NCBI RefSeq assembly: GCF_900090145.1
Contig: NZ_FMHI01000024.1
Coordinates: 1 to 64,000, forward strand
Length of the DNA stretch: 64,000 nucleotides
Direction: 5' to 3'
Source of the DNA: Streptomyces sp. WMMB 322
GTDB taxonomy: Bacteria > Actinomycetota > Actinomycetes > Streptomycetales > Streptomycetaceae
Both the position numbers and the translations under genes were made by a program. How positions within the stretch are numbered: the stretch's first letter is position 1; each line of letters begins with the position of its first letter. Positions 19,184-26,074 of the stretch are shown piece after piece. The notes under the pieces are model-generated. The model made no database searches and was not told the DNA's origin. It worked only from the letters and a program-made list of their open reading frames with translations.

Positions 19184-20157
19184 ACCTGCCGCCCCACCTG
19201 GTCGGTGCCCGAACCCACCTGGTCGGCGCCCGAAGTGCCCGAAGTGCCCGCGGTCGCGGCACCTGCGGGGCCTGGCGGCGGTCCGGCGACGGCGTCGGGC
19301 CCGGCGCCCTCCACGGCTTGTGCGACGCGGACCGCGTCCGCGCTCGCCCGTACCTCGTGGACCCGCACCGCCCACGCTCCCTCGCGGGCGGCCAGGGCCG
19401 ACACCGCGGCCGTCGCGGCGTCACGTTCACGAGCGGGCGGCACCGGGGCGCCGTCGGCGCCGGCGAGCACTCGGCCGAGGAACCGCTTGCGGGAGGCTGC
19501 CACCAGCAGCGGCCTGCCCAACTCCTCGCGCAGACGGCCGAGTTCCGCCACCAGGCGCAGATCGTGCGGGGCCTGCTTGGCGAAGCCCAGGCCCGGGTCG
19601 GCCACGATCCGGTCCGGGGCCACACCGGCGTCCACCGCGCGGCCGAGGCTCGCGCGCAGCTCGGCGATGACCTCCGCGGTGACGTCGCCGTAGACCGCGC
19701 GGTTGTTCATGTCGATGGACTGGCCGCGCCAGTGCATGACGACGAAGGGCACCTGGGCCGCGGCCACGGCGGGAAGCATCCCCGGGTCGGCGAGGCCGCC
19801 GCTGACGTCGTTGACGAGCACCGCGCCCGCCTCCATGGCCCGTTCCGCGACCGAGGCCCGCATCGTGTCGACGCTGACCAGCACGTTCTCCGAGCTCAGG
19901 CCACGGACGACGGGGAGCACCCGCCGCAGCTCCTCCGCCTCGTCGACACGGAGTGCGCCCGGACGCGTCGATTCGCCGCCGACGTCGACCAGGTCGGCGC
20001 CCTCGGCGACCAGATCGAGACCCCGTTTGATCGCCGCTTCGCTGTCGAACCACTTGCCGCCGTCGGAGAAGGAGTCCGGCGTGACGTTGACCACCCCCAT
20101 CACGGCACAGCGGTTCCAGTCCGGGAGTCCGGTGACGCGGCCACGCGATGGATTCAT
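19180..20157 (-). CDS. folP: Dihydropteroate synthase
   Basis: A 325-residue TIM-barrel enzyme condensing hydroxymethyldihydropterin pyrophosphate with p-aminobenzoate; the sulfonamide target. Motifs: MGVVNVTPDSFSDGGKW, LVDVGGESTRPGA, DTMRASVAERAMEAGAVLVNDVSGG, MHWRGQSIDM, DPGLGFAKQAPHDL and VAASRKRFLGRVL. About 45 extra C-terminal residues (Gly/Ala/Thr-rich) extend past the normal end. The ATG at 20157 overlaps the rhodanese stop as ATGA and the stop overlaps the NTF2-like start, so three genes are coupled. Confidence 0.95.
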   Translation of the reverse strand: MNPSRGRVTGLPDWNRCAVMGVVNVTPDSFSDGGKWFDSEAAIKRGLDLVAEGADLVDVGGESTRPGALRVDEAEELRRVLPVVRGLSSENVLVSVDTMRASVAERAMEAGAVLVNDVSGGLADPGMLPAVAAAQVPFVVMHWRGQSIDMNNRAVYGDVTAEVIAELRASLGRAVDAGVAPDRIVADPGLGFAKQAPHDLRLVAELGRLREELGRPLLVAASRKRFLGRVLAGADGAPVPPARERDAATAAVSALAAREGAWAVRVHEVRASADAVRVAQAVEGAGPDAVAGPPPGPAGAATAGTSGTSGADQVGSGTDQVGRQV

Positions 20158-20663
20158 GTCTCCAGCGTAGGCCGCGCGTCCTCTCGAGGGGGGTCGGGTG
20201 GCGTGACGGGGAGTCCGGCGGCACGCCAGGACTGGAAGCCTCCCTCGAGGTCCGTTGCCCGGCGAAGCCCCAGGTCGTGAAGGGAACGGGCGGCGAGGCT
20301 GGAGGCGTAGCCCTCGTTGCACACCACGACGATGCGCAGGCCGAGGGCCTTGGGGTCTCCCCAGGCCCCACGGGCCGAGGGGAAGGCCTCGGGTGAGCGG
20401 TGCGGACACGTCGGGTCCAGACGCCACTCCAGCTCGTTGCGCTCGACGATCAGCGCACCGGGGATGGTGCCGTCCCGCTCCCGCAGTGCCGCGTAGCGGA
20501 TGTCCACCAGCAGCGCGCCCTGCTCGCGCTGGGCCCGGGCGGCCGACTCGGCGCTGAGCCGTTCCAGTCCGGAGCGCGCCGAGGCCAGCAGGGAGTCGAC
20601 GCGGCTCGGGGGCCGGGAGCCCGGGGCCGTACCGTCGCCGGCGGCCTGTCGAACGCCGGTCAT
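20154..20663 (-). CDS. Rhodanese-like domain protein
   Basis: A 169-residue protein with a single rhodanese domain after about 40 polar residues. Visible parts are LLVDIRYAALRERDGTIPGALIVERNELEWRL, the active-site loop VVVCNEGYASS with Cys115, and DLEGGFQSWRAAGLPV. Rhodaneses carry persulfide sulfur between donors and acceptors. Its stop overlaps the folP start. It is followed upstream, 97 bp away on the same strand, by a cysteine dioxygenase, so sulfur handling may link the two. Confidence 0.88.
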   Translation of the reverse strand: MTGVRQAAGDGTAPGSRPPSRVDSLLASARSGLERLSAESAARAQREQGALLVDIRYAALRERDGTIPGALIVERNELEWRLDPTCPHRSPEAFPSARGAWGDPKALGLRIVVVCNEGYASSLAARSLHDLGLRRATDLEGGFQSWRAAGLPVTPPDPPREDARPTLET

Positions 20664-20760: not shown

Positions 20761-21339
20761 TCATTCCCACTCTCCCGGGCGCTCGACCTGCTCCAGGCGC
20801 AGCAGTGCGCCCGTGCGGCTGTACCGCCGCATGAGCGGCAGCGGCGGGTAGTAGGCGTGCACGGAGACCGCGTGCTCGGACCCGGTGTCGTTGAGCACCT
20901 GGTGCACGTGGTGCGGCCCGAACGCGCGTCCGCGGCCGGTGGTCAGCTCACGCTCCCGGTCCACACCGTCCGCCAGCTCCAGCGTCTTCCACCCCTCGGT
21001 GGGGAGCCGGGTGGCGAGGGAATGCTCGGTGAGACGGCCGCGGGCGGTGGCGAAGGCTCCGTGGGAGCCGCCGTGGTCGTGCCAGCCGGTGCCGGTCCCG
21101 GGCGGCCAGCTGATGATCCAGGCCTCGCTGCCGCCGGGCCCGTTCAGCCGCAGCCAGGTGCGGCCCCCGGGGTCGAGGGGGAGCGAGGTGACGAGTCCGG
21201 CGTCGGCGGCCGTCTCCCGGACGAAGTCGAGCAGCTCGGCCTCGGTGGGAGCGGGCGCGCCGCCGGCCGGCCCGGCGGGGCCCTTTGCGGGCGCGGATCC
21301 GGAACCGGACACAGGCGTGGCGGAGGATGCGGATGACAC
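20761..21339 (-). CDS. Cysteine dioxygenase
   Basis: A 192-residue cupin of the type I cysteine dioxygenase family, which oxidises cysteine to cysteine sulfinate with a ferrous ion. The iron ligands lie in GTGWHDHGGSHGAF (His87, His89) and FGPHHVHQVLN (His144 or His146). About 30 Pro/Ala/Gly-rich residues precede the domain. The GTG at 21339 follows AGGACGG by six bases. A short cysteine-rich leader peptide lies about 70 bp upstream on the same transcript, implying control by cysteine or Cys-tRNA supply. Rhodanese and folP follow downstream. Confidence 0.88.
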   Translation of the reverse strand: MSSASSATPVSGSGSAPAKGPAGPAGGAPAPTEAELLDFVRETAADAGLVTSLPLDPGGRTWLRLNGPGGSEAWIISWPPGTGTGWHDHGGSHGAFATARGRLTEHSLATRLPTEGWKTLELADGVDRERELTTGRGRAFGPHHVHQVLNDTGSEHAVSVHAYYPPLPLMRRYSRTGALLRLEQVERPGEWE

Positions 21340-21371
21340 GGAGAACCGTCCTGAAGTGTGATCGAGGGCAT

Positions 21372-21388
21372 GCGCTCACCAAGAGCGC
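21372..21388 (-). promoter_or_regulatory. Stem-loop between leader peptide and cysteine dioxygenase
   Basis: GCGCTC (21372-21377) pairs with GAGCGC (21383-21388) around a 5-base loop, between the leader stop and the dioxygenase start. It is not followed by a T-run, so if it acts it more likely affects translation than termination. Confidence 0.4.
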
Positions 21389-21407
21389 GCGGAACGGCCT
21401 GACTTGA

Positions 21408-21494
21408 TCAGCAGGACGGACGACACAGGCAGCCCACGTAGCGGAGCAGGTCCAGGTGGACCCTCCGCCAGGGATGCAGCTCGGTGCCGTTCAT
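21408..21494 (-). CDS. Cysteine-rich leader peptide (attenuator)
   Basis: A 28-residue open frame from ATG 21494 to TGA 21408-21410. It begins MNGTELHPWRRVHLDLLR and ends YVGCLCRPSC, with three cysteines among the last seven residues. It matches the short 'putative leader peptide' type that precedes sulfur and cysteine genes in Streptomyces. There is no Shine-Dalgarno; the ATG lies seven bases after a -10-like TTCACT, so the mRNA is probably leaderless. Ribosome stalling at the Cys codons when Cys-tRNA is scarce would alter folding downstream and so expression of the dioxygenase. The mechanism is inferred. Confidence 0.75.
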   Translation of the reverse strand: MNGTELHPWRRVHLDLLRYVGCLCRPSC

Positions 21495-21501
21495 GCGGTG
21501 G

Positions 21502-21530
21502 AGTGAAGCACGAGACCCCTGGGTGGTCAA
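21502..21530 (-). promoter_or_regulatory. Promoter of the leader peptide-cysteine dioxygenase unit
   Basis: On the reverse strand TTGACC (21530-21525) and TTCACT (21507-21502) are separated by 17 bp. The -10 end is seven bases from the leader ATG, which puts the transcript start at or next to the A of the ATG. The -35 is consensus; the -10 is imperfect. Confidence 0.6.
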
Positions 21531-21594
21531 CTTGCCTCCGCACGTTCCGGGATGGACGGACGGGCCCCTGCCACGCCGGGCGTGAGGCGGTTCC

Positions 21595-22845
21595 TCACGT
21601 GTCCGCCACCGTCCTCAGCCTCACCTCGTCGCGGCGTACGTCGCGTTCGTCCGCGTCGATGGAGCGGCGCAGCGCCTCGTGCAGCCGGCCCGGCGTCAGC
21701 ACGCCGACGAAGCGGTCGGCGTCGTCCAGCACGGCGATCCAGCCCGCGTCGTGCTGGAGCATGCTGCTGAACGCCTGCTTCAGCGGCGAACCGAGCGGCA
21801 GCCACGCCTCCATGCGGCGGGCGTGGTCCGCGACCGTGGGCGGCGCGTCCTTGCCCGCCGCCTTCGCGGCGGCCGTCGTGTCGGCCTTCGCGCCGAGGCC
21901 GGAGTCCGCCGCGGTGCCGGCGCCGCGCTCGGACTCCTCGCCCAGCGCGTCGGCGGCGAGCCAGCCGTGCAGCTCGTCCGCGTCGTCGAGCACGACGGCC
22001 CAGCGTGCACCCTCGCCGCGCATGCGGGCGCGGGCCTTGTCGAGCGGATCGTCGAGGTGCACGACCGGGGGCTGCTCCAGGTCGCCGAGCTCGATCGGGG
22101 TGACCGAGAGCCGCTTCAGCCCGCGGTCGGCGCCGACGAAGTCCGCGACGTACGGGGTGGCGGGTGCGCCCAGCACCTTCGCCGGAGGGTCGAACTGCTC
22201 GATGCGCCCGTCCCCGTAGACGGCTATGCGGTCGCCGAGCCGCACGGCCTCCTCGATGTCGTGCGTGACGAAGAGGACCGTCTTGTGCAGCGTCGACTGG
22301 AGCTTGAGGAACTCGTTCTGGAGATGCTCGCGCACCACCGGGTCCACGGCGCCGAACGGCTCGTCCATGAGCAGCACCGGCGGGTCGGCGGCGAGTGCCC
22401 GTGCGACGCCGACGCGCTGCCGCTGACCGCCGCTGAGCTGGTCGGGGTAGCGGTCGCCGTACCGCGCCGGGTCGAGGCCGACCATCTCCAGCAGCTCGGC
22501 GGCGCGCTTGCGGCGCTCTGCCTTGGACCAGCCGAGCAGGAACGGGACGGTGGCCGTGTTGTCGAGCACCGTCTTGTGGGGGAAGAGGCCCACCTGCTGG
22601 ATGACGTACCCGATGCGCCGGCGCAGTTCGACCGGGTCGACGGCGGAGATGTCCTCGCCGTCGAGCAGGATGCGCCCGGACGTGGGCTCGATGAGCCTGT
22701 TGACCATCTTCATCGTGGTCGTCTTGCCGCAGCCGGACGGCCCGACGAGGGTGACGAGTTCGCCCCGCGCCACCTCCAGGGACAGCTCGTGCACGGCGGT
22801 GGTGCCGTCCGGGTAGCGCTTTGTGACGTTCTCGAAGCGGATCAT
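21595..22845 (-). CDS. Glycine betaine/osmoprotectant ABC transporter ATP-binding protein
   Basis: A 416-residue ATPase of the OpuCA/ProV type. Walker A is GPSGCGKT (35-42), Q-loop IQQVGLFPH, signature LSGGQRQR (137-144) and Walker B VLLMDEP (157-163), with switch His in VTHDIEEAVRLGD. The C-terminal part carries two CBS-like segments (SVTPIELGDLEQPPVVHLDDPLDKA and DRFVGVLTPGRLHEALR) split by an Ala/Gly-rich insert of about 50 residues. CBS domains in OpuA sense ionic strength or bind nucleotides. The ATG at 22845 starts MIRFENVTKRYPDG. It is divergent from the permease and binding-protein genes. Confidence 0.92.
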   Translation of the reverse strand: MIRFENVTKRYPDGTTAVHELSLEVARGELVTLVGPSGCGKTTTMKMVNRLIEPTSGRILLDGEDISAVDPVELRRRIGYVIQQVGLFPHKTVLDNTATVPFLLGWSKAERRKRAAELLEMVGLDPARYGDRYPDQLSGGQRQRVGVARALAADPPVLLMDEPFGAVDPVVREHLQNEFLKLQSTLHKTVLFVTHDIEEAVRLGDRIAVYGDGRIEQFDPPAKVLGAPATPYVADFVGADRGLKRLSVTPIELGDLEQPPVVHLDDPLDKARARMRGEGARWAVVLDDADELHGWLAADALGEESERGAGTAADSGLGAKADTTAAAKAAGKDAPPTVADHARRMEAWLPLGSPLKQAFSSMLQHDAGWIAVLDDADRFVGVLTPGRLHEALRRSIDADERDVRRDEVRLRTVADT

Positions 22846-23310
22846 CGTCTCATTCTCGTCGCTCGGCTCGGGTTCGGGACGGGGCCGGTCTGCTCTGCTC
22901 CTGCTCTGCTTCTTTCTCGGCCTTCTCGGCCTTCTCGGCTTTCTCCGCTGTGCTCCCGGCCCGGGATCTGCCTGTCCCGGGCCGGGCTCTCGTGCCGGCT
23001 CCCGTCCGGGCGCGTACCGGGGTCTCGTACCGGGGCTTCGTCTCGGACGCCCGTCGGCCGCCGTGTCCTCGGTCCGGGCCGCGTTCTTCCCGGGGCCGGA
23101 CGAAGTCCGTGGCAGGAGTGTGGCAGTTCGGACCAGTTGTCGGTAGCGGACTGTAAGGTCTCCCGGCATGCTTACGGACGCACGTGGCGCGCCCCGGCGG
23201 TGACGCAGGCGGCGGACGTGAGCAGTACGACGTGAGTACGACGTGAGCAGTACAGCGCGCGCCGTACGGGGCAGGCAGCCGGAGCCGAGCGGGTCGAGGG
23301 GGTGAGCGGG
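22846..23310. other. Divergent intergenic region of the osmoprotectant transporter
   Basis: No gene is seen in these 465 bp. At 22914-22949 lie four copies of a 9-bp unit, TTCTCGGCC and variants. The region must hold promoters for the ATPase gene (reverse) and the permease operon (forward), but I found no confident -35/-10 pair. Confidence 0.4.
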
Positions 23311-24183
23311 GTGAACGGGCCGAGTGTGCCGAGCGGCGGCGAGCAGGCGGCGATCCTGGCCGGGGCCGTCGAACAGCCGGGTGGCGGCTGCCTCAAGACG
23401 AACGACTGGATCTGCGCCGAGTACGTGCGCACGCGCAGCCAGGAGCTGACGGACGCCACCGTGGAGCACATCTGGATCACGGTCGCCTCGGTGCTGCTGG
23501 CGCTGCTCGTCGCCTTCCCCCTCGCGCTCGCCGCCCGGCGCTGGCAGCGCGCGTACGGGCCCGTGCTCGGACTGACCACGGTGCTCTACACGGTGCCGTC
23601 GCTGGCCATGTACGCGCTGCTGCTACCGCTCTTCGGCGTCGGAGCGGCAGTCGTCGTGACGGGGCTGGTGCTCTATTCGCTCACCGTGCTCGTACGGAAC
23701 ATCCTCGCCGGCCTCGAATCCGTGCCCGAGGAGGCCCGGGAGGCCGCGCGCGGCATGGGCTACGGCCCGTACCGGCTGCTGTTCGGCGTGGAGTTGCCGC
23801 TCGCGCTGCCCGCCCTGATGGCCGGCGTGCGGATCGCGACGGTCTCCGCCGTGGCGCTGACGACGGTCGGCGCGATCGTCGGCTTCGGCGGCCTCGGCAA
23901 CCTCATCTACGACGGCATGGACAGCTTCTTCAGGGCGCAGGTGCTGACCGCTTCGGTGATCTGCGTGCTCCTGGCGTCGCTCGCCGACGTGCTGCTGCTC
24001 GGGGTGCAGCGGCTGCTGACGCCCTGGGCCCGTACCGGCGGCCGCGGGCGGCGCCGCGCGGGTGCGGGCACACGTGACGAGGCGGGCGGCGAGCAGGCAC
24101 CGGACGCCGGTGGCGACGGCGGTGCGGACGCCGTGGACGACGGCGCCCGCGGCGCGCCGGAGCCGGCCGGCAAGGGGGCGTGA
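23311..24183 (+). CDS. Glycine betaine/osmoprotectant ABC transporter permease
   Basis: A 290-residue OpuCB/ProW-like inner-membrane permease with about six membrane segments (e.g. IWITVASVLLALLVAFPLALAA, VLGLTTVLYTVPSLAMYALLLPLFG). The EAA loop that docks the ATPase reads EEAREAARGMGYGPYRLLFGVELPLALPAL. GTG 23311 is chosen because GAGGGG lies nine bases upstream; GTG 23302 abuts that site. A 60-residue hydrophilic Gly/Ala-rich tail follows the last segment. Its stop overlaps the next permease's possible first start codon. Confidence 0.9.
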   Translation: MNGPSVPSGGEQAAILAGAVEQPGGGCLKTNDWICAEYVRTRSQELTDATVEHIWITVASVLLALLVAFPLALAARRWQRAYGPVLGLTTVLYTVPSLAMYALLLPLFGVGAAVVVTGLVLYSLTVLVRNILAGLESVPEEAREAARGMGYGPYRLLFGVELPLALPALMAGVRIATVSAVALTTVGAIVGFGGLGNLIYDGMDSFFRAQVLTASVICVLLASLADVLLLGVQRLLTPWARTGGRGRRRAGAGTRDEAGGEQAPDAGGDGGADAVDDGARGAPEPAGKGA

Positions 24184-24185
24184 CG

Positions 24186-25001
24186 GTGAGCTTCTTCCTG
24201 GACGCGTGGACGTGGCTGATCACGGGCGCCAACTGGACCGGCGGCGACGGCGCGACGCACCGGCTCGCCGAGCATCTCTTCCTCACCGTCGTCTGCCTCG
24301 GCATCGCCTGCGCCGTCGCCCTGCCCGTCGCCCTGTGGCTCGGGCACGTGGGGCGGGGCGGCGCGCTCGCCGTCAACATCTCCAACGTCGGCCGTGCGGT
24401 GCCCACATTCGCGGTGCTCGTCCTGCTGACGCTGAGCCCTCTCGGCAGGCTCGGCGACGTGCCCACGATCATCGCGCTGGTGCTCTTCGCGATTCCGCCG
24501 CTGCTCACGAACGCCTACGTCGGGATGCGCGAGGCCGACCGTGACGTGGTGGAGGCGGCCCGCGGAATGGGCATGTCCGGATGGCAGCTGCTGGGACGGG
24601 TCGAAGTGCCGCTTGCCTTCCCGCTGATCATGACGGGCGTGAGGTCGGCCGCCGTACAGGTCGTGGCGACGGCGACGCTGGCCGCGCTGCCCGGCGGCGG
24701 CGGGCTCGGCCGGATCATCACGGCCGGCTTCGGGACGTACGACACCCCGCAGGTCGTCGCCGGCGCGGCACTCGTCGCGGCGCTCGCCCTGCTGGTGGAG
24801 GGCGTGCTGGTGGTGGCCGAGCGGCTGCTGGACCCGATGCGCGGCCGTCGCACGAGCGGGAAGGCACGGGGCCGCGGAAGGCCGGGGAGAACCGGCTCCG
24901 AATCCCCTCCGCCCTCGCCTTCGTCGCCTTCTTCGTCGCACTCCCCTTCGTCGCCCTCGGGCTTCGATGAAAAGGTGATTTCCGCCCGGCCGACGTCCTG
25001 A
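24186..25001 (+). CDS. Glycine betaine/osmoprotectant ABC transporter permease (second)
   Basis: A 271-residue partner permease of the same family (OpuCD-like), with the EAA loop DVVEAARGMGMSGWQLLGRVEVPLAFPLIMTGVR and five to six membrane segments. GTG 24186 has AAGGGGG seven bases upstream; GTG 24180 overlaps the previous stop but is too near that site. The C-terminal ~45 residues are Ser/Pro-rich and low complexity. It should form a heterodimeric channel with the upstream permease. Confidence 0.9.
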   Translation: MSFFLDAWTWLITGANWTGGDGATHRLAEHLFLTVVCLGIACAVALPVALWLGHVGRGGALAVNISNVGRAVPTFAVLVLLTLSPLGRLGDVPTIIALVLFAIPPLLTNAYVGMREADRDVVEAARGMGMSGWQLLGRVEVPLAFPLIMTGVRSAAVQVVATATLAALPGGGGLGRIITAGFGTYDTPQVVAGAALVAALALLVEGVLVVAERLLDPMRGRRTSGKARGRGRPGRTGSESPPPSPSSPSSSHSPSSPSGFDEKVISARPTS

Positions 25002-25081
25002 CCGATGACGAGCGACAACTCCCTGGCCCTGGGGTTCCGATGCCTGGGGTGACACCCGTACCCCTGACACGAACGGTGGAC

Positions 25082-26074
25082 ATGATGAACGAGGCAGCAA
25101 CAGCGAAGCCGGACCGGAAGCCCCGCAGGGCGCGCACCCTGCTCGCCGCGGGCGGCGCGGTGGCCGTTCTGGCCACGGCCCTGACCGCGTGCGGCGGAAA
25201 CAGCCTGGAGAAGGAGGGCGGCGGCTCCGCCGACGGCGGCTCCAAGGGCGAACTGGTCGTCGGCTCGGCCGGATTCACCGAGTCGCAGATCATGGCGGAG
25301 ATGTACTCGCAGCTGCTCACCAAGGCCGGCTACAGCACGTCGATCAGCAAGCTGAAGAACCGCGAGCTGTACGAACCGGCCCTGGAGAAGGGCGAGATCG
25401 ACGTCGTGCCGGAGTACGCGGCGACCCTCGCCGAATTCCTCAACGCCAAGGAGAACGGGCCCAAGGCGAAGCCCGTCGCATCCAGTGACGTCGGGAAGAC
25501 GACCGCCGCGCTGGAGAAGCTCGCGAAGCCGCGCGGGCTGAAGGTGCTGCCCGCCGGTGACGCCGTGGACCAGAACGCCTTCGCGGTCACCGAGGAGTTC
25601 GCGAAGAAGCACAAGCTCAAGACCCTCTCGGACCTCGGCAGGTCGGGCGAGAAGATCAAGCTCGCGGCGAGCGACGAGTGCGAGGAGCGGCCCTTCTGCC
25701 GCCCCGGCCTGGAGAAGACCTACGACATCGACATCACCGGCATCGACCCCAAGGGCGTCGGGACGACGCAGGCGAAGGAGGCCGTCAAGGACGGCACCGA
25801 CCAGATGGTGCTGACGACCACGACCGATGCCACTCTCGAGGACTTCGGGCTCGTGCTCCTCAAGGACGACAAGGGCCTGCAGAACGCGGACAACGTCCTG
25901 CCGGTCGTCAACGCGAAGAAGGCGGGCGGCGAGAAGGTCTCCGCGGCGCTCGAGAAGCTGACGCAGGTCCTGACCACCAAGGACCTCACCGACCTCAACA
26001 GGAAGGTGGACGCGGAGCGGCAGAAGCCGAAGGACGTCGCCGAGGAGTACCTCAAGGCGAAGAATCTCCTCTGA
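25082..26074 (+). CDS. Osmoprotectant-binding lipoprotein (OpuCC/OsmF type)
   Basis: A 330-residue extracytoplasmic binding protein. A twin-Arg-free lipoprotein signal with lipobox LTAC places the lipidated cysteine at residue 37. The mature domain begins ELVVGSAGFTESQIMAEMYSQLL, typical of quaternary-amine binders, and contains KNRELYEPALEKGEIDVVPEYAATLAEFL. It captures compatible solutes such as glycine betaine or choline for the two permeases upstream and the divergent ATPase. ATG 25082 or 25085 can serve as start after GGTGG. Confidence 0.92.
   Translation: MMNEAATAKPDRKPRRARTLLAAGGAVAVLATALTACGGNSLEKEGGGSADGGSKGELVVGSAGFTESQIMAEMYSQLLTKAGYSTSISKLKNRELYEPALEKGEIDVVPEYAATLAEFLNAKENGPKAKPVASSDVGKTTAALEKLAKPRGLKVLPAGDAVDQNAFAVTEEFAKKHKLKTLSDLGRSGEKIKLAASDECEERPFCRPGLEKTYDIDITGIDPKGVGTTQAKEAVKDGTDQMVLTTTTDATLEDFGLVLLKDDKGLQNADNVLPVVNAKKAGGEKVSAALEKLTQVLTTKDLTDLNRKVDAERQKPKDVAEEYLKAKNLL

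Follow-up and report, generated by a model that had tools for sequence, protein, structure and literature searches.

A conserved Cys-codon leader and a predicted helix over the ribosome-binding site of a Streptomyces cysteine dioxygenase gene

Upstream of a cysteine dioxygenase (CDO) gene in the window, by which we mean the whole stretch of 64,000 nucleotides that was analysed, lies a short leader ORF whose last codons are complementary to the Shine-Dalgarno (SD) site of the dioxygenase. We consider it reasonably probable that this arrangement is a translational attenuator, in which ribosomes dwelling on Cys codons free the SD site, and that CDO is induced in this way by cysteine limitation. 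It has to be said from the outset that, physiologically, it would be odd for an enzyme that destroys cysteine to be induced when cysteine is limiting. The features on which the argument draws are as follows.

20154-20663, minus strand: rhodanese-domain sulfurtransferase (PF00581, E 4.4e-11), the next gene downstream of CDO.
20761-21339, minus strand: CDO, with a GTG start (Pfam CDO_I, PF05995, E 7.8e-43).
21346-21353, minus strand: SD site of CDO, CAGGACGG, the same letters in 102 of 111 orthologues.
21359-21363, minus strand: 3' arm of helix 2, GATCA, from the fold and clade comparison.
21372-21388, minus strand: apical stem-loop GCGCTC-TTGGT-GAGCGC, from the fold.
21406-21410, minus strand: 5' arm of helix 2, TGATC, overlapping the leader stop codon and pairing with GATCA.
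21408-21494, minus strand: leader ORF, MNGTELHPWRRVHLDLLRYVGCLCRPSC, 28 codons, stop at 21410-21408.
21411-21413, minus strand: Cys codon 3 (Cys3), TGC, codon -1, present in 98 of 109 Streptomyces loci.
21412-21419, minus strand: anti-SD arm CCGTCCTG in the last leader codons, exact reverse complement of CAGGACGG.
21423-21425, minus strand: Cys codon 2 (Cys2), TGT, codon -5, the sensor Cys of the leader family, 11 residues after His.
21429-21431, minus strand: Cys codon 1 (Cys1), TGC, codon -7, Cys in 109 of 109 Streptomyces loci.
21441-21468, minus strand: hairpin within the leader ORF, GCGGA.GGTCC-loop-GGACC..TCCGC, over the WRRVHLDLLR codons, from folds.
21502-21530, minus strand: promoter TTGACC-N17-TTCACT (TTGACC 21530-21525, 17-nt spacer, TTCACT 21507-21502), ending 7 nt 5' of the leader ATG.

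The first-pass annotation had described a 28-codon ORF with three Cys codons behind the TTGACC-N17-TTCACT promoter, followed by a stem-loop and then by the dioxygenase, and both the coordinates and the elements hold on the minus strand, with the stem-loop at 21388-21372 and CDO running from the GTG at 21339. That stem-loop forms just the tip of a more extensive structure, which in the folds traps the SD site of CDO. The leader ATG lies at 21494, 7 nt downstream of the TTCACT box, and the transcription start deduced from the promoter spacing, which is kept in the orthologues, would make the transcript leaderless. In 109 Streptomyces orthologues the TTGA box stands 33-39 nt 5' of the start codon, so that all leaders have 28 or 29 codons. 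The window promoter, which has a weak -10, was absent from the output of a strict sigma-70 scan. Further along the window, at 21595-26074, the neighbouring genes would, judged by eye, encode an ABC ATPase, two permeases and a substrate-binding protein of osmolyte-uptake type, and are unrelated to the leader.

The gene product belongs to the CDO_I family, on the basis of its profile match and an HxH block (WHDH in the alignment), and its nearest solved chains are thiol/cysteine dioxygenases. An Arg found 14 residues N-terminal of a conserved Trp in 107 of 111 orthologues occupies the presumed carboxylate-binding position, its match to rat Arg60 being judged by eye, and Ser stands at this position in the closest PDB chain, 8qfl, which we take to be ergothioneine dioxygenase. 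Directly 3' of the dioxygenase, the rhodanese gene is present in 116 of 116 CDO1 loci.

For the comparison, 61 related genomes and 80 named Streptomyces loci yielded 116 loci of the window's CDO clade, with some genomes represented twice and 71 distinct leader 3' ends; one locus is truncated, and 115 have enough upstream DNA to be informative. An orthologous leader precedes the orthologous CDO in 114 of these 115. The sole informative locus that lacks it, also from Streptomyces (L034), has its CDO frame fused on the upstream side to sequence for a LacI-type DNA-binding domain, which probably reflects a rearrangement or an assembly join. In the leaders of the 109 Streptomyces loci no substitution occurs at W, RR, V, H, D, R, Y, G, Cys1 or Cys2, and one locus outside this set (L052) has Arg at -7 in place of Cys1. 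Over the last 20 codons pN/pS is 0.21, which implies strong codon-level constraint. We give virtually no credence to the idea that the leader ORF arose by chance or is an artefact of annotation. Only its small size and the score of the window copy, under the cut-off of the NCBIfam profile NF042934, can be adduced for this; the 114 orthologues, the pN/pS value and the invariant Cys codons and spacing rule it out. A search of Rfam matched no family, and a plasmid search gave one partial match.

The pairing between leader tail and SD site is complete (8 of 8) in 90 of 111 orthologues, and reaches at least 7 of 8 in 107. Among leaders ending in RPSC, 94% have the full helix, against 22% expected from synonymous codon choice; within the pairing codons, Pro is CCG in 102 of 106 and Ser is TCC in 105 of 106, with backgrounds of 47% and 38%, respectively. 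In an outgroup locus (L035), CCCGTCCG is fully complementary to CGGACGGG. Helix 2 differs by clade: the window's clade has TGATC:GATCA, most of the other clades have TTCGC:GCGAA, and the median duplex energy is -6.9 kcal/mol for own arms versus -5.6 kcal/mol for cross-type arms. True covariation is nevertheless thin, because the helix between SD and tail is mostly invariant among orthologues, and the overall fold z-score is only -1.23. The pairing codons of the hairpin within the ORF are nearly fixed, including the rare Arg codon AGG in 100 of 109 Streptomyces loci. On these comparisons of sequence, sequestration of the ribosome-binding site (RBS) appears well supported as the mechanism; the predicted SD-closing structure is conserved, and we infer that it would block translation of CDO. 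In three loci (L099, L100 and L105) insertions place the SD about 200-250 nt from the leader stop, and tail and SD are still complementary there.

A strong stem between leader and CDO might also act on transcription, ending it before CDO, intrinsically or through Rho, with translation not blocked, and terminators are frequent in leader-controlled operons elsewhere. We hold this to be very unlikely here, since there is no U-tract terminator, a scan of 21000-21900 returned 0 terminator-like sites, and what is conserved is the ability to pair with the SD itself, up to a point immediately 5' of the start codon.

Cys-rich leaders stand upstream of CDO-family genes in many actinobacteria, and in two other lineages the CDO leader likewise pairs with the start site or the SD. 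At a locus whose CDO belongs to another family (L037), the tail GTCCTTCGC and the SD region GCGAAGGAC are exact 9-nt complements; at Streptomyces CDO2, poly-Cys codons pair with start-proximal codons (GCUGUUGCUGUUC:GAACAGCGACAGC, p down to 0.003). The CDO leaders of the f6, f23, f36, f19 and f29 loci, and that of Streptomyces CDO3, gave no sign of SD sequestration (p 0.15-1.0), and for this reason we do not claim it as universal. The second Streptomyces CDO paralogue (G000:C22:811200-813700, L040, and L204-L223) has an unrelated poly-Cys leader, MPVTPGLITAATARPLRAARVATGHCRCRCRCC in the window's genome, whose Cys codons pair with the MNSD codons. The short f6 leader, ME[HY]V(G/A)(F/S)QGCC(C/R)RS, with its GCC[CR]RS tail, has no detectable RBS complementarity (L226, L227 and L232). 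At L163 and L166, two tandem leader-like ORFs precede CDO, the first poly-Cys and the second, RRIHLDLLL...VC, running toward the CDO start.

By its sequence, the window leader probably falls within an already described class, NF042934 (cis_reg_atten, 'putative leader peptide'), related to the mycobacterial leaders Ms5788A and Ms4527A: the genus consensus of its orthologues scores 37.1 bits against a cut-off of 27, and the window copy itself, with E 4.4e-5 and 23 bits, falls below it. The core of this profile, HxD[LF]xR with a Cys 11 residues after the His, is present in RRVHLDLLRYVGCLC, where His to Cys2 is 11, and in the other leaders read. With NF042933, the profile of the Ms5788A leader, the window copy scores 16.9 bits, under the cut-off of 45, and the rhodanese leader of the same genome passes at 45.2 bits. 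A survey of this genome, based on profile hits, placed leaders of the same profile family before CysO-CysM, an SseA-type rhodanese and sulfite reductase; in other Streptomyces they are also found before sulfatase-like, flavin monooxygenase-like and transporter genes, all of these products being judged by eye. The CysO-CysM leader of this genome (L127, G000:C15:362236) is without Cys at +11 (HVDLCRLASALR), where its relatives have SAIC.

Constrained folding with modelled ribosomes on the leader predicts that ribosome position changes access to the SD, and that the open states are those with ribosomes dwelling from Cys2 to the stop. Median SD accessibility across 109 loci is 0.005 in free RNA and about 0.28 with a ribosome at Cys2, Cys3 or the stop. 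A modelled ribosome at Cys1 leaves the SD helix intact, with about 7.9 pairs (leading edges P+12 and P+14), and the helix is lost from Cys2 to the stop. When RBS accessibility was averaged over -16..+12 there was no clear shift for CDO1, the change being confined to the SD itself. Prediction and comparison together describe an RNA fold in which the downstream RBS is masked until a ribosome occupies the Cys codons, Cys1 excepted. In a toy model of ribosome traffic with illustrative parameters, in which all Cys codons slow together, the open fraction is 0.05-0.33 at the normal Cys rate and about 0.65 with slow Cys decoding, and under extreme starvation it falls again, to 0.19, once decoding is slower than the life of the mRNA. 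Since the SD is closed in ribosome-free RNA and opened by ribosomes dwelling from Cys2 to the stop, slower Cys decoding should raise CDO, and since the helix is closed during a stall at Cys1, extreme starvation would switch it off.

This bears directly on the sign of control. A leaderless Cys attenuator had been proposed in the first-pass annotation with reversed logic, that is, with CDO expressed when Cys-tRNA is charged, and the two parts of this proposal have fared differently: the attenuator is strengthened by its conservation, its family of Cys leaders and the conserved SD-sequestering helix, whereas the reversed sign finds no support in an anatomy that is closed in free RNA and opened by ribosomes between Cys2 and the stop. 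For the reversed logic to apply, starved ribosomes would wait at Cys1 with the SD closed, and ample Cys-tRNA would let them reach the tail and stop, so that CDO is made when cysteine is plentiful. This we regard as unlikely, even though the pairs left with the A-site at Cys1 are in its favour, ribosomes at termination free the SD no less than those at Cys3, and the logic suits a catabolic gene. In the toy model, open time grows with limitation up to the point of extreme starvation; Cys1, which is Arg in L052, is not the sensor position of the family; the CDO2 pairing uses the Cys codons themselves; and sulfur-acquisition genes stand behind leaders from this family in which both the spacing and the codon are kept. 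Both the anatomy and the shared leader family point to induction by limitation as the probable sign. Published transcript data can be read either way and leave the sign undecided. On feather, which is rich in cysteine, cdo1 mRNA was up 50.2-fold and cdo2 mRNA 8.3-fold relative to LB (PMC7181669), which favours the reversed logic; in strain KK-T, CDO transcripts were basal at 24-48 h, with cysD/cysNC/cysC/cysH repressed, and both were up at 96 h (PMC12763843), a pattern more in line with induction by limitation.

A further question is what the ribosome responds to. Cys2 is TGT in 109 of 109 Streptomyces CDO loci, against a background of 20%, and in the leaders read before sulfur-related operons (L244-L272 and L273-L292) the Cys at +11 is TGT in all but one (L277); in rhodanese leaders the sensor Cys lies 11 residues after an aligned Ala, in place of His. 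Other Cys positions in the same HxD[LF]xR leaders are mostly TGC (Fisher p 1e-4, two genomes). In the leader of CDO, synonymous changes occur at Arg(-4), Tyr, Leu(-13) and His, and at Tyr (TAT/TAC) and His (CAT/CAC) there is no variation of any other kind; the conservation of the peptide (His, Tyr and Trp) exceeds what RNA pairing needs. The TGT bias at the sensor Cys, together with peptide conservation beyond RNA pairing, suggests that more than the counting of Cys codons is involved. We put forward, tentatively and with more doubt than confidence, that the actinobacterial HxD[LF]xR family is a peptide-assisted cysteine sensor, in which the motif would lie in the exit tunnel, its distance to one particular UGU Cys codon being fixed, and this UGU, wobble-read by the Cys tRNA, would set the stall. 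On this view CDOs have repeatedly been recruited to such leaders because they serve sulfur salvage under limitation rather than disposal of excess.

A related account, which overlaps with dwelling on Cys codons in that the switch is the same and the sensor different, is that the conserved WRRVHMDLVRYAGC in the exit tunnel, and not Cys-tRNA supply alone, halts the ribosome at Cys2 or the stop, perhaps sensing cysteine itself in the manner of TnaC, and so opens the SD. In its favour are the constraint on the peptide beyond RNA pairing and the fact that HxD[LF]xR recurs before unrelated operons, always 11 residues from His to Cys. Part of the conserved stretch is also an RNA hairpin, however, and other CDOs are preceded by poly-Cys leaders without the motif; we judge it rather unlikely.

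Under the reading that we prefer, control by Cys-codon dwelling, a leaderless transcript would open with a short sensor ORF of Cys codons. With no ribosome near the leader end, the tail CCGUCCUG would pair with CAGGACGG, helped by helix 2 and the apical hairpin, and CDO translation would be off; a ribosome with its A-site at Cys2 or beyond would cover the tail and, judging from constrained folding only, free the SD. Limiting Cys-tRNA would then prolong the dwell at Cys2 and Cys3, and CDO and the downstream rhodanese would be translated. Because the leader family is shared, CDO would fall in a cysteine-starvation set of leader-controlled genes, together with the sulfite reductase, CysO-CysM and SseA-type rhodanese of the same genome. 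As for the physiological sense, our guess is that thiol sulfur may be released as sulfite and re-assimilated, or that the substrate is other than free cysteine. If true, a textbook enzyme of cysteine disposal would be switched on by cysteine shortage across actinobacteria, which would suggest that CDO, along with its partner rhodanese, acts in sulfur salvage, and the leader family would allow one to ask whether peptide sequence, codon choice (UGU versus UGC) or both set the sensor. Control of CDO is also of applied interest, because the enzyme has been discussed as a source of sulfite in feather breakdown by Streptomyces (PMC7181669).

Compared with known systems, the window leader shares with NF042934 leaders the HxDLxRxxxxxC core and the occurrence of members before other sulfur genes of this genome, and departs from their norm in having three Cys, in an RPSC tail that can pair with the SD and in the catabolic nature of the controlled gene. 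With transcription attenuators of the trp/his type it has in common a short peptide rich in the regulated amino acid; unlike them, it has no intrinsic terminator, and the conserved pairing is with the SD. In translational attenuators of the ermC type, the SD of the next gene is buried in a helix until a ribosome stalls on the leader ORF. The signal is an antibiotic there and presumably Cys-tRNA here, and the mutually exclusive alternative hairpin of such attenuators was not found at the window leader. Leader peptides of the TnaC type have a conserved peptide sequence before a catabolic gene, as does the window leader, for which ligand-dependent arrest is only hypothetical. In mycobacterial Cys-rich leaders, the position of the ribosome has reportedly been proposed to free the downstream RBS. 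Leaderless Cys-rich uORFs were described before cysA2 and nirA in mycobacteria (Shell 2015; PMC4633059), and, according to the summary given in PMC9031893, cysteine-dependent attenuation was reported by Canestrari 2020. The mycobacterial leaders Ms5788A (NF042933) and Ms4527A (NF042936) resemble the window leader in their C-terminal Cys codons, in being the first ORF of a cysteine-metabolism transcript and in being leaderless, which for the window leader is deduced; its match to the Ms5788A profile is weak, at 16.9-18.3 bits against the cut-off of 45. Theirs is a contiguous run of Cys codons before assimilation genes, whereas in the window the Cys codons are interspersed and the gene is CDO.
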